NCBI GenBank assembly: GCA_040219515.1
Contig: JAVJSI010000005.1
Location: 1-64,000, forward strand
Source of the DNA: Acidimicrobiales bacterium
GTDB lineage: Bacteria > Actinomycetota > Acidimicrobiia > Acidimicrobiales > Aldehydirespiratoraceae
Direction of reading: 5' to 3'
Length of the DNA stretch: 64,000 nucleotides
The position numbers and the translations under genes were made by a program. The notes under the pieces are model-generated. The model made no database searches. It was not told the origin of the DNA and worked only from the letters and a program-made list of their open reading frames with translations. Positions within the stretch are counted from its first letter, which is position 1. Each line of letters starts with the position of its first letter. Of the stretch, positions 43,934 to 46,918 are shown one piece after another.

Positions 43934-43953
43934 TCTCTCACCGTTCTCTCACC
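43934..43953 (+). promoter_or_regulatory. Candidate response-regulator direct repeat (TCTCTCACC twice)
   Basis: The nonamer TCTCTCACC occurs twice, starting at 43934 and 43945, an exact 11-base step. That is one helical turn, the spacing used by OmpR/PhoB-type dimers on direct repeats. It sits 3-21 bases upstream of the ATG at 43957 and thus just ahead of the response-regulator gene, suggesting autoregulation. A related TCTGAC/TCTTAC pair with the same spacing lies upstream of the secreted-protein gene at 46170-46841. Confidence 0.5.
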
Positions 43954-43974
43954 TGCATGTGCGACGCTGGTCCG

Positions 43975-44655
43975 GTGGCCACCATCCTGATCGCCGAAGA
44001 CGATCGCCGAGTACGCGAGAGCCTCGATCGTGCGCTGCAGTTGGAGGGCTACGAGGTCATGACGGCGAACGACGGCGCCCGGGCGCTCGAACTGCACGCC
44101 GACGCCCACGCCGACCTGCTGCTGCTCGATGTCTCGATGCCGAACGTCGACGGTCTCACCGTGTGCCGCACGATCCGCTCGAAGGGCGACGACACCCCCA
44201 TCCTGATGCTGACCGCGCGACACGAGATCGACGATCGTGTGGCCGGTCTCGACGCCGGTGCCGACGACTATCTCGTGAAGCCGTTCGCCCTCGAGGAGCT
44301 GCTCGCCCGTGTCCGTGCCCGCCTGCGGTCGAGTGTGGTGGTCGACGACGGCACGCTCGTGCTCGGTGACCTGGTGATGGACCTCGACGGTCGTAGGGTC
44401 GATCGCGACGGCAAGGTGCTCGATCTGAGTCGCACCGAGTTCGATCTGCTCGAGGTGTTGGTGCGCAATGCCGGAGTGGTCCTCGGGCGCGACGTGCTCT
44501 ACGAGCGGGTGTGGGGTGGGGAGCTCGACATCGAGTCCAAGACCCTCGATGTCTACGTGGGGTATCTGCGCAAGAAGTCGGAGGTCGACGGGGCGGCCCG
44601 TCTCGTCCACACCGTCCGCGGCGTGGGTTACGTCGCCCGTGAGGGCGAGCAATGA
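43975..44655 (+). CDS. OmpR-family response regulator, MprA-like
   Basis: The GTG at 43975 gives 226 residues. The receiver domain has Asp52 as phosphoacceptor (LLLLDVSMPNVDG), Thr80 and Lys102 (LVKPFALEELL). The winged-helix output domain ends with KTLDVYVGYLRKK and HTVRGVGYV. The block RESLDRALQLEGYEV and GLDAGADDYLVKPFALEELLARVRARLR closely resembles MprA of mycobacteria. An in-frame ATG at 43957 is an alternative start with six more residues. The stop overlaps a 10-codon mini-ORF that leads to the kinase gene. Confidence 0.9.
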   Translation: MATILIAEDDRRVRESLDRALQLEGYEVMTANDGARALELHADAHADLLLLDVSMPNVDGLTVCRTIRSKGDDTPILMLTARHEIDDRVAGLDAGADDYLVKPFALEELLARVRARLRSSVVVDDGTLVLGDLVMDLDGRRVDRDGKVLDLSRTEFDLLEVLVRNAGVVLGRDVLYERVWGGELDIESKTLDVYVGYLRKKSEVDGAARLVHTVRGVGYVAREGEQ

Positions 44656-44684
44656 GCACAGTCGCCCGTGAGGGCGGGCGGTGA
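44652..44684 (+). CDS. Ten-codon mini-ORF bridging regulator and kinase genes
   Basis: ATG at 44652 shares bases with the regulator stop (ATGA) and reads MSTVAREGGR, then TGA at 44682-44684, which overlaps the GTG start of the kinase gene (GTGA). It exists because of a local 29-base duplication: 44632-44650 and 44661-44679 differ at one base. It may keep ribosomes moving from regulator to kinase. Such a short peptide need not have a function of its own. Confidence 0.3.
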   Translation: MSTVAREGGR

Positions 44685-46069
44685 CGCTGCGGGTCCGGAT
44701 CGTCGCCGTGGTGACGGTGGTGGTCGCCGCAGTGGTCGTGGTGATCGGTGGGACGTTGTTGCGCAGCACCGAGGCGTCGTTGGTGGGCGAGATCGACTCG
44801 GATCTCGTGGGCCGGGCCCGGGCCTTCCACGACGAGCGAGCGTTGCCGTCGGACGCGGCCGCCGCCGATGTCGATCGCCTTCAGGACTTCGAGGGTTTCG
44901 GGACGCGGTTGCGGGGCGACCGCACGGATCCGTTCGGGCTGACGGTCGGCTTCGACGCCCTGGCTCGGGTCCTCGACAATTCGGGGACGGTGAGGTTCGT
45001 CCTCGACCAGGAGTTCGACGCAGCCACCGACGCCGCCCTCCTCGACCGTGCGGAGTCGGCGCCGGTCCTGTCGAACGGTTCGGATGATCAGGGGCGTGTC
45101 CGGGTCGTCACCACTGCGCTTCCTCGACGTGGTTTCGTGCAGCTCGCCCGACCGCTCGACGAGGTCGACTCGGTGCTCGACGCGTTCCGCCGACGAACTG
45201 CCGCGATCGGGTTGGCCGCGATCGTCGGTGCGGGGATCGTGGCGTGGTTCCTGGCCGGACGCACGGTCCGGCCGATCCGAGACCTGACCGAGGCGACCGA
45301 GTACGTCGCCGCCACCGGCGATCTCGAACGCGGTGTCGCGGTGACGGCCTCGGGCGACGAGGTCGGCCGGCTGTCGGTGAGTTTCACGTCGATGCTCGAT
45401 GCCCTCTCGGCCTCGCGGCGTCAGCAACGTCAACTGGTGATGGACGCCTCCCACGAGCTGCGGACACCACTGACGAGCCTGCGGACCAACGTGGACGTAC
45501 TGCGCCGAGGTCACCAGCTGTCGACCGACGATCGCGAGGCCGTGGTCGCCGATCTCGACGCTGAGCTGGGTGAACTGAGCGACATCGTGGCCGAGCTCGT
45601 CGATCTGGCGACCGACGTCCGAAGCGGCGAGGATCTCGCGCCGCTCACCTTGGCCGAGGTCGCGGAGCCGGTCGTCGAGCGAGCACGCCGGCGGACCGAT
45701 CGGACCATCGAGATCGACCTCGTCCGGTCGACGGTGCTCGAAGCCCGCCCCGAGGCGATCTCCCGGGCGATCCGGAACCTCGTCGACAACGCTGCGAAGT
45801 TCTCCCCGCCGGGCACGGCCATCCGGGTGGAGATCGACGGTGGACGGGTCGCGGTGCACGACCAGGGTCCCGGTGTCCCCGAAGCGGAACGGGATCGGAT
45901 CTTCGATCGGTTCCACCGGCTCGATTCGAACCGCTCGCAACCCGGTTCGGGGCTCGGCCTCGCCATCGTCCGCCAAGTCGCCGAGGCGCACGGTGGCACC
46001 GTGTTCGCCGGGTCGTCGAGCGACGGTGGCGCAGCGATCGGGTTCGCGGTCCCCACGATCGACGACTGA
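44681..46069 (+). CDS. HAMP-containing sensor histidine kinase, MprB/BaeS-like
   Basis: The GTG at 44681 gives 462 residues: a first membrane helix (about 5-27), an extracytoplasmic sensor of about 145 residues, a second helix (about 173-193) and HAMP (VRPIRDLTEATEYVAATGDLER). The dimerisation/phosphoacceptor box VMDASHELRTPLTSL contains His258. RNLVDNAAKFSPPG, HDQGPGVP and GSGLGLAIVRQ are the N, G1 and G2 boxes. It should phosphorylate the regulator encoded just upstream. Translation is probably coupled through the GTGA mini-ORF junction. Confidence 0.9.
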   Translation: MTLRVRIVAVVTVVVAAVVVVIGGTLLRSTEASLVGEIDSDLVGRARAFHDERALPSDAAAADVDRLQDFEGFGTRLRGDRTDPFGLTVGFDALARVLDNSGTVRFVLDQEFDAATDAALLDRAESAPVLSNGSDDQGRVRVVTTALPRRGFVQLARPLDEVDSVLDAFRRRTAAIGLAAIVGAGIVAWFLAGRTVRPIRDLTEATEYVAATGDLERGVAVTASGDEVGRLSVSFTSMLDALSASRRQQRQLVMDASHELRTPLTSLRTNVDVLRRGHQLSTDDREAVVADLDAELGELSDIVAELVDLATDVRSGEDLAPLTLAEVAEPVVERARRRTDRTIEIDLVRSTVLEARPEAISRAIRNLVDNAAKFSPPGTAIRVEIDGGRVAVHDQGPGVPEAERDRIFDRFHRLDSNRSQPGSGLGLAIVRQVAEAHGGTVFAGSSSDGGAAIGFAVPTIDD

Positions 46070-46103
46070 ATTCCGGCGCCGGTTCAACCCCGGGATCGAC
46101 GCG

Positions 46104-46136
46104 GCGGCGCCGGGGCCACGAGGGCCCCGGCGCCGC
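46104..46136. terminator. Strong bidirectional hairpin
   Basis: The 14-base arms GCGGCGCCGGGGCC and GGCCCCGGCGCCGC pair perfectly around a 5-base ACGAG loop. The hairpin sits between the converging kinase gene and secreted-protein gene, where a terminator is expected. The flanking sequence lacks a long T run, as is common in high-GC actinobacteria, so termination strength is not certain. Confidence 0.8.
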
Positions 46137-46169
46137 TGGGGGGAGGGTCAAGGATTCCTGGGTATCGGG

Positions 46170-46841
46170 TCAGGCGTCGGGGTCGGACTGATCGAGCGTG
46201 CCGTCCGCGGGGCCGCCGCGATGGCCGCGACGTCCCTGGAACTCGAGTTCGCCGTTGACCAGGTCGGTCGCCTTCTCCTCGGCATCGGCGAGGATCTCGT
46301 CGGCCCGCTCCTGCTCGATGCGGCCGTCTTCGAGACCCGTGGCGACGCGGGCCTCGGCGGCATCGACGAGCGCATCGAGCAGGTCCTGGGTGTCCACTCC
46401 CTGGGCGGCGGCGACGTCGGCGAGCGTCTGGCCGCTGACGAGCGCTTCGCGGAGCTCTGCCTGCTCGAGGTCGAGGATCTCCGCGATACCGGCGTCGCCC
46501 GCGAAGAACCCACGGCGGCCATGACCTCGCTCGCCGCGCTCGGGGGCGGCTGCGACGAGAGTCTCGACGACGGCGTCGAGCTGGGACTGGGTGAGCGTGC
46601 CGTCGTCGACGAGGCCCTGGAGGACGTCGGCGATGCGGTCGCCGGGCTCATGGTCGGCCGCCGCAGACGTGGTTTCCTCGGTGGTCGTCTCGTCGGTGCT
46701 CGGCTCGGTGTCGTCCTGGGCGCCGGCCAGGCCGGGAGCGAACAGGGTTGCGCCGGCGAGAGCACCGCCGAGTGTCGTTGCCACGGCGGCGGTGGCGAGG
46801 GTCTTTTTCTGGAGGGGGTTGTTGGGAACGGTCATTTTCAT
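46170..46841 (-). CDS. Secreted helical protein beside the two-component system
   Basis: The ATG at 46841, with AAGGA 5-6 bases upstream, gives 223 residues. KKTLATAAVATTLGGALAGATLFAPGLAGAQ is a signal peptide, with cleavage near AGA-Q. A Thr/Glu-rich linker follows (about 40-60), then three helical segments, each carrying a short loop (DGTLTQSQLDAVVETL, SGQTLADVAAAQG, EDGRIEQERADEIL). The repeated GTLTQxQLDAV-type units suggest a helical repeat. I do not recognise a family. An in-phase ATG at 46883 is possible but lies over the promoter region. It is convergent with the kinase gene. Confidence 0.7.
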   Translation of the reverse strand: MKMTVPNNPLQKKTLATAAVATTLGGALAGATLFAPGLAGAQDDTEPSTDETTTEETTSAAADHEPGDRIADVLQGLVDDGTLTQSQLDAVVETLVAAAPERGERGHGRRGFFAGDAGIAEILDLEQAELREALVSGQTLADVAAAQGVDTQDLLDALVDAAEARVATGLEDGRIEQERADEILADAEEKATDLVNGELEFQGRRGHRGGPADGTLDQSDPDA

Positions 46842-46901
46842 GGTCCTTCTGGGTTGGGTGGTGTGTCGGTGCCTCTCGGACACCCACCATGAAGGTGCCG
46901 G

Positions 46902-46918
46902 GTAAGAGGATTGTCAGA
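46902..46918 (-). promoter_or_regulatory. Candidate response-regulator direct repeat (TCTNAC twice)
   Basis: On the minus strand the hexamers TCTGAC and TCTTAC occur 11 bases apart, 61 bases upstream of the secreted-protein ATG. The same TCTNAC-N5-TCTNAC shape occurs in front of the adjacent regulator gene. This makes the secreted protein the likely direct target of the regulator. The site is weak in isolation; the shared spacing is the argument. Confidence 0.45.

Follow-up and report, generated by a model that had tools for sequence, protein, structure and literature searches.

Introduction

Two-component control of extracytoplasmic quality-control genes is already well known. For mycobacteria, the literature describes an MprA box made up of loosely conserved direct repeats, and in PhoB-type promoters an 11-base-pair (bp) direct repeat stands in place of the -35 element, 10 bp from the -10 element. 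Sensor kinases with a small secreted partner are known from CpxAR/CpxP, CseA and HbpS-SenSR, and both CpxP and CseA are feedback inhibitors of the kinase. Here we analyse a window of 64,000 nucleotides (positions 1 to 64,000 of contig JAVJSI010000005.1, assembly GCA_040219515.1, from an Acidimicrobiales bacterium), in which the genes of a response regulator, a sensor histidine kinase and a secreted helical protein lie together, the first and the last being each preceded by a direct repeat of the form TCTNAC-N5-TCTNAC (N, any base). In our reading, to which we give a probability of roughly 0.75, this would be an MprAB/CssRS-like two-component system of Acidimicrobiales, whose regulator activates its own operon and the secreted-protein gene through this repeat.

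The Locus and Its Two Direct Repeats

The features on which the reading depends are the following.

43936-43952, + strand: putative operator of the regulator promoter, direct repeat TCTCAC-N5-TCTCAC (TCTCACCGTTCTCTCAC), from pattern search and seven-genome comparison
43963-43968, + strand: -10-like hexamer GACGCT of the regulator promoter (NANNNT 10 bp past the repeat)
43975-44655, + strand: OmpR/PhoB-type response regulator, GTG start, with Lys189 in the recognition helix (Response_reg and Trans_reg_C; tree)
44681-46069, + strand: sensor histidine kinase (HAMP, HisKA, HATPase_c)
46170-46841, - strand: secreted helical protein, ATG at 46841, convergent to the kinase, of a weakly DUF2680-like family
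46869-46877, - strand: leader GAGAGGCAC just past the proposed transcription start of the secreted gene (promoter alignment)
46886-46891, - strand: CATGGT, the -10-like hexamer before the secreted gene (10 bp past the repeat; promoter alignment)
46902-46918, - strand: putative operator of the secreted gene, direct repeat TCTGAC-N5-TCTTAC (TCTGACAATCCTCTTAC)

Both repeats stand exactly where the initial annotation had placed them, TCTCAC-N5-TCTCAC before the regulator and TCTGAC-N5-TCTTAC before the secreted gene, each in the orientation of its gene. The first ends 22 bp before the GTG at 43975 and the second lies 60 bp upstream of the ATG at 46841. The half-sites are 11 bases apart in both, the common TCTNAC word, which the annotation had also claimed, is seen at both sites, and the 11-base repeat is kept before both genes in relatives. 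The regulator, tested for the OmpR/PhoB type, has both a receiver and a winged-helix Trans_reg_C domain, and the secreted protein has a signal peptide, recognised by eye, and a predicted helical structure.

The shortness of the words and the imperfection of the second site might suggest that the two repeats resemble each other by chance. The pattern is expected only 0.04 times in the window, however, two or more matches were seen in 0 of 100 dinucleotide shuffles, and both sites are present in seven of seven genomes of the genus. Chance resemblance, the probability of which we consider negligible, is refuted by the conservation of both repeats.

In the window's own genome of 4.02 megabases (Mb) there are four matches to TCTNAC-N5-TCTNAC, versus one for the reversed control. 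The third (C9:232194) overlaps the 3' end of a coding sequence. The fourth, TCTGAC-N5-TCTTAC at G000 C18:133160-133176 on the - strand (L102/L004), precedes a beta-lactamase-family gene whose product has a Tat/lipoprotein-like N-terminus, and is followed at 10 bp by TACAAC and 6 bp further by an ATG; since a counterpart was found in none of the six other genus genomes, this site was not counted as a target. A pattern with two mismatches, tried for naming targets, gave 42 matches in the same genome versus 18 for the control and was too noisy.

Conservation of the Repeats in Relatives

The sites, their conservation and spacing, and the co-inheritance of the genes were established by sequence comparison, for which the homologous locus was retrieved from 40 places in related genomes. 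In the seven aligned loci of the genus, 16 of the 17 columns of the regulator repeat are invariant, one spacer column varying, and the 20 bp upstream are unconserved. A widened pattern, TCTNWC-N5-TCTNAC-N11-A (W, A or T), was derived from five genus genomes and then run on all seven, so that in G001 and G005 the secreted-gene sites, though not the regulator sites, were unseen when it was set. It gave 15 matches (2 for its reversed control), 14 of them being the regulator and secreted-gene promoters, one each per genome. The expectation that relatives keep the 11-bp repeat is borne out before both genes throughout the genus.

Across 51 genomes of the family, the strict pattern combined with the -10 hexamer has 29 matches versus 2 for the control. 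Eighteen stand before the regulator, three before the secreted gene and four before htrA in one genus, here g6; one lies behind the kinase of G007 and three are elsewhere (G012, G027 and G036). When the upstream regions of 107 homologous regulators, from near to far, were examined, the repeat was perfect in 29 and matched at nine of the ten fixed positions in 17, compared with 0 and 20 in 4280 shuffles; the loci are related, and the counts are therefore not independent. In the same regulator subclade, six Streptomyces loci carry the repeat (9-10 of 10 positions) on the opposite strand, 64-82 bp upstream.

At three places the promoter is seen in other surroundings. Behind the G007 kinase (C37:23655-23687, - strand, L101) the repeat and -10 hexamer are left while the secreted gene is missing, an apparent promoter remnant. 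In G036 (C6:13306, + strand, L090) a copy of the regulator promoter with about ten first regulator codons is fused before a lipoprotein-like gene, apparently a promoter capture. In G012 (C12:6088, + strand, L077) the repeat, -10 hexamer and start codon precede a glycosyltransferase-like gene with the same geometry, and no kinase match at E up to 1e-40 was found in that genome.

Relation to MprAB and CssRS

The closest solved regulator is PrrA, and the NCBIfam equivalogs tried for the window regulator (MtrA, PhoB, CseB and others) all fell below their cut-offs. The best match in Rhodococcus qingshengii, 55% identical, belongs to a regulator-kinase-HtrA cluster of the MprAB-PepD type, and a Streptomyces regulator, 56% identical, to an htrB-regulator-kinase cluster of the CssRS type. 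In a tree of 93 regulators, the MprA- and CssR-type regulators and that of the window share a supported clade of 63 rows (95/93), the window regulator falling in a supported 49-row subclade (98/94) separate from MprA; the root is the midpoint and serves for drawing only. Three regulators from assemblies titled Bifidobacterium breve (L150, L158 and L165) stand among Acidimicrobiia/Microthrix-like rows of the tree, and the assembly titles look wrong.

The likeness to MprAB-PepD of mycobacteria and rhodococci includes, besides this clade, a protease or secreted target gene next door and the layout of the promoter. In Rhodococcus the regulator and pepD-like promoters contain TCTCAG-N5-TCTCAG, with the same 10 bp to NANNNT as in the window. 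In the 6.5-Mb Rhodococcus genome G100 (L325 and L327), TCTNAG-N5-TCTNAG has three matches, before the MprA-type regulator, before the pepD-like gene and 114 bp ahead of a gene identified as SigB by NCBIfam; the reversed control gives seven, so the places are telling and the number is not. Both sigB and sigE are reported as MprAB targets in mycobacteria (PMC12113857). The window system differs in that position 6 of its half-site is C, not G as in Rhodococcus (the TCTNAG repeat has 0 matches in the window genome), and in that its kinase adjoins the gene of the secreted helical protein instead of pepD/HtrA, its own htrA being on contig C9.

With CssRS-HtrB of Streptomyces the window system likewise shares the regulator clade, and in the Streptomyces htrB promoter region there are 11-bp repeats too, though imperfect ones that agree at 7 of 8 fixed positions. 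The window locus, in contrast, has no htrB neighbour and its sensor lacks cysteines, whereas CssS and CutS are reported to have two conserved cysteines each (PMC12802291). Cysteines are absent from the sensor outer domain of 18 of 19 kinases, the remaining one (L070, from another family of the order) having two. The model of this domain has helices and five strands; a fold search found nothing at E up to 0.001, and the weak matches included PAS and Cache (best E 0.017); the domain may be described, as modelled, as PAS/Cache-like. The motifs given for MprA of C. glutamicum (TKTTAAGAAM, PMC12113857) and for CutR (TAWATAAA, PMC12802291) do not match the window repeat.

The shared 63-row clade and the shared repeat layout support the view that the window system would be a variant of the MprAB/CssRS stress systems, with C in place of G at operator position 6 and with a secreted protein as the probable target.

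Promoter Geometry

The regulator promoters compared (n = 27) were those with 9-10 of the 10 positions matched on the + strand; 25 belong to the family and 2 to other families of the order. In these a NANNNT hexamer begins 10 bp past the repeat, with the A present in 26 and the T in 25. In the secreted-gene promoters (n = 23) the hexamer stands at the same 10 bp, and the A, the T and the CT of the distal half-site are all kept in 23 of 23. This second profile, from which L071 and L026 were left out, was anchored on TCTTA(C/G), and the conservation of that half-site is therefore partly due to selection, that of the distal CT and the -10 columns not. The 11 g6 htrA promoters that carry the repeat likewise have a TAG-type hexamer starting 10 bp past it.

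With the distance to the -10 hexamer fixed at 10 bp, the repeat would span about -39 to -23 and take the place of the -35 element. A class II, PhoB-like promoter layout fits both genes, and the initial reading of the repeat as the site of an OmpR-type dimer gains by it, the distance fitting an activator of the OmpR/PhoB type. Regulators of that type bind tandem direct repeats with a step of about 10-11 bp, and a repeat of this kind is present and conserved here. The likeness to PhoB/PhoP-type activation consists in the 11-bp direct repeat in the -35 position, 10 bp from the -10; the half-site word is another one and no phosphate-gene target was found. The regulator start codon lies 6 bp past the hexamer, and its messenger RNA (mRNA) is therefore probably leaderless. 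Upstream of the secreted gene, many relatives have up to three extra half-sites in the 11-bp register (the window has none), and 45 of 52 TCA(C/T) words there fall in one of the 11 registers.

The same sites and the same regulator would also be compatible with a circuit in which the bound regulator represses transcription by blocking the core promoter and the signal relieves this repression. The repeat does overlap the core promoter, and a precedent exists in Streptomyces, where CutR bound at -17 is reported to repress htrB (PMC12802291). Nevertheless, the repeat occupies the -35 position with no other -35 element visible, the 10 bp to the -10 hexamer are fixed in the regulator, secreted and htrA promoters alike, the extra upstream half-sites of many relatives are in register, and MprA of C. 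glutamicum is reported to be positively autoregulated (PMC12113857). We consider repression unlikely.

Co-inheritance and Possible Role of the Secreted Protein

In the survey of the 51 family genomes, the kinase was called at E < 1e-100 and the secreted family at E < 1e-30. Under these thresholds 37 genomes have the kinase and 23 the secreted gene, all 23 being among the 37 (23/37 with the kinase vs 0/14 without, Fisher p = 5.6e-5, kinship uncorrected). G018, which lacks the kinase, has a homologue at E 4.4e-26 that was left out of the count; its inclusion would make the comparison 23/37 vs 1/14. In 20 of the 23 the two genes are on one contig within about 10.5 kilobases (kb), and the remaining three have their kinase on a contig of less than 5 kb, so the proposal that the secreted gene accompanies the two-component pair in relatives agrees well with what is found. 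The kinase occurs without the secreted gene in 14 family genomes, namely 13 of genus g6 and G007. In the wider order, homologues of the secreted protein are encoded beside homologous kinases in G056 (twice), G069, G074, G075 and G077; further ones stand beside a second pair in G006 and beside kinases at L143, L146, L154 and L166.

The secreted family has at best a weak likeness to the DUF2680 (YckD-like) secreted proteins: of the 18 relatives aligned, 7 have a match to PF10925 with E no higher than 0.1, the best being 5.6e-6, and the window protein itself differs in having no match at this level. None of the 18 relatives has an LTXXQ/Spy-CpxP Pfam match, which sets the family apart from CpxP and Spy. 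The position of a small exported protein gene beside a sensor kinase gene is the same as in CpxAR/CpxP, CseA and HbpS-SenSR. No solved fold was matched at E up to 0.001 in a fold search with the secreted protein, and a 'CAP repeat', the best solved-chain match of the family, was judged uninformative because of its low per-repeat scores. Neither DUF2680 nor YckD was named in the titles and abstracts that a literature search found.

The secreted protein may, with a probability that we put at somewhat less than even, serve mainly to inhibit the kinase by feedback and not as a stress effector such as a chaperone or wall protein; the circuit would be unchanged. Linkage of the gene with that of the kinase, seen in 20 of the 23 family genomes, and the position of its relatives beside homologous kinases elsewhere in the order speak for such a role. 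For mycobacteria it has been reported that DnaK binds MprB at its outer domain and keeps this kinase off (PMC8561658), which makes kinase binding a serious alternative to an effector role. On the other hand, the kinase is retained without the secreted gene in 14 of the 37 family genomes, and in g6 the apparent target is HtrA, which is an effector.

The htrA Promoters of Genus g6

The strict pattern stands before a Trypsin/PDZ (HtrA-type) gene in four g6 genomes. When the htrA promoters of 16 g6 genomes were scored, the repeat (at least 8 of 10 positions) was present in 11 of the 12 with a kinase and a readable promoter and in 0 of the 3 without a kinase (p = 0.009, related genomes treated as independent). 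G041 was omitted, its promoter being unreadable at the edge of a contig, and the score of G037 comes from a match at the end of one. Outside g6, 16 of 33 htrA loci were looked at, that of the window genome included; one had an 8/10 match (L279) and the rest none. The target thus appears to have moved in g6 from the secreted protein to HtrA. The presence of the same kind of repeat before HtrA-type protease genes of relatives lends indirect support to an envelope-stress setting of the window system.

Similar repeats are shared by OmpR-type regulators, of which family genomes have several, and the sites might accordingly be read by a regulator other than the neighbouring one. We find this very unlikely, as the repeat and this regulator remain together across long distances and the htrA site of g6 tracks the presence of the pair.

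The Recognition Helix and Position 6 of the Half-Site

Window-type regulators carry Lys at position 189, in the recognition helix, where those of the MprA and CssR types carry Asn. From 88 loci examined, 51 without a perfect TCTNA-N6-TCTNA repeat and 2 without an aligned residue were removed. Among the 35 counted, all 29 Lys-type loci have C at proximal position 6, and five of six Asn-type loci have G, L146 being the exception. In the Asn-type loci L143, L146 and L154, the repeat near the secreted gene, behind the kinase, ends in TCTTAG, while the Lys-type family has TCTTAC. Lys-type regulators are essentially one clade, and the Lys/C correlation may therefore reflect a single evolutionary event.

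We put forward only tentatively, as rather doubtful, the broader proposal that, throughout a large family of actinobacterial regulators of extracytoplasmic stress, a single residue of the recognition helix determines position 6 of a common operator, TCTNA(C/G)-N5-TCTNA(C/G). Within that family, HtrA proteases and the unassigned secreted helical family would have been exchanged for one another as the output, and the secreted family would be a dedicated chaperone or kinase partner of this response. If true, the Lys/Asn rule would point to the missing operator of Streptomyces CssR, described as undetermined (PMC5157995), its regulon being described as undefined (PMC12802291). The suggestion that this operator may be a TCTNAG-type repeat is a weak one, and several observations in the Streptomyces genome G101 tell against it: the htrB repeats are imperfect (7/8), neither of the two further htrA-like promoters examined has a site of at least 7, and both perfect TCTNAG repeats stand before other genes. 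An action of CssR on htrA1 and htrA2 has, however, been reported for S. lividans (PMC12802291). In the Frankiales loci L174 and L177, which have the order htrA-regulator-kinase and an Asn-type regulator about 56% identical, no TCTNA repeat of at least 7 was found on the htrA strand.

Discussion

The best account of the locus may be a small, positively autoregulated switch for extracytoplasmic stress with one dedicated output. The kinase would sense a disturbance outside the membrane, either in protein folding or as envelope stress, and phosphorylate the regulator, which would bind TCTNAC-N5-TCTNAC as a head-to-tail dimer at about -39 to -23, replacing the -35 element, and activate transcription from the -10 hexamer 10 bp downstream. 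Its targets would be its own operon, by positive autoregulation and with a leaderless mRNA, and the neighbouring secreted-protein gene, the product of which would work extracellularly, either as an effector of the stress response or as a partner that feeds back on the kinase. Binding by the neighbouring regulator, activation, the nature of the signal and the role of the secreted protein are what we infer from the comparison. The original proposal of autoregulation plus a direct target, in a three-gene unit, is supported at the level of sequence by the conserved sites and by co-inheritance.

Several observations weigh against this account. The distal half-site of the secreted promoter often deviates from TCTNAC, the regulator's own promoter in g6 agrees at only 8 of 10 positions, the htrA site of G048 is degenerate despite the presence of the kinase, and the window genome's own htrA on contig C9 has no such repeat. 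The p-values treat related genomes as independent. Moreover, the genome scan for TCTNAC-N5-TCTNAC, from which the initial annotation had expected an enrichment upstream of other genes, disclosed nothing wider than the two sites and one possible third. With no enrichment beyond these, the regulon of the window regulator looks tiny.

In the open-access literature searched, a published TCTCAC or TCTCAG operator of this regulator family was not found. As the MprA box of mycobacteria consists of direct repeats, the mycobacterial form may be in print. As far as that literature was searched, the TCTNAC operator with its layout and the secreted family as a target appear to be new, and so do the HtrA switch in one genus and the correlation of Lys/Asn with C/G. 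A secreted family without known function would thereby gain a regulator, an operator and a probable setting, in an order represented here almost only by metagenome assemblies. The MprA/CssR family is offered a testable operator rule, and the apparent replacement of the secreted protein by HtrA as the target in one genus is a clear natural example of the rewiring of a stress regulon in which the switch itself has been kept.

Some features of the locus may be recorded besides. It is flanked by surE, divergent from the regulator, and by an aminotransferase gene, divergent from the secreted gene; at L036, L043, L046, L049 and other loci two or three of the extra half-sites upstream of the secreted gene, exactly in 11-bp register with its proximal pair, lie near the promoter of the divergent aminotransferase. 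A 16-bp direct duplication, GTCGCCCGTGAGGGCG (44632-44647 and 44661-44676), extends across the regulator-kinase junction. The leader GAGAGGC of the secreted gene (window 46869-46877, - strand) is kept in many relatives.

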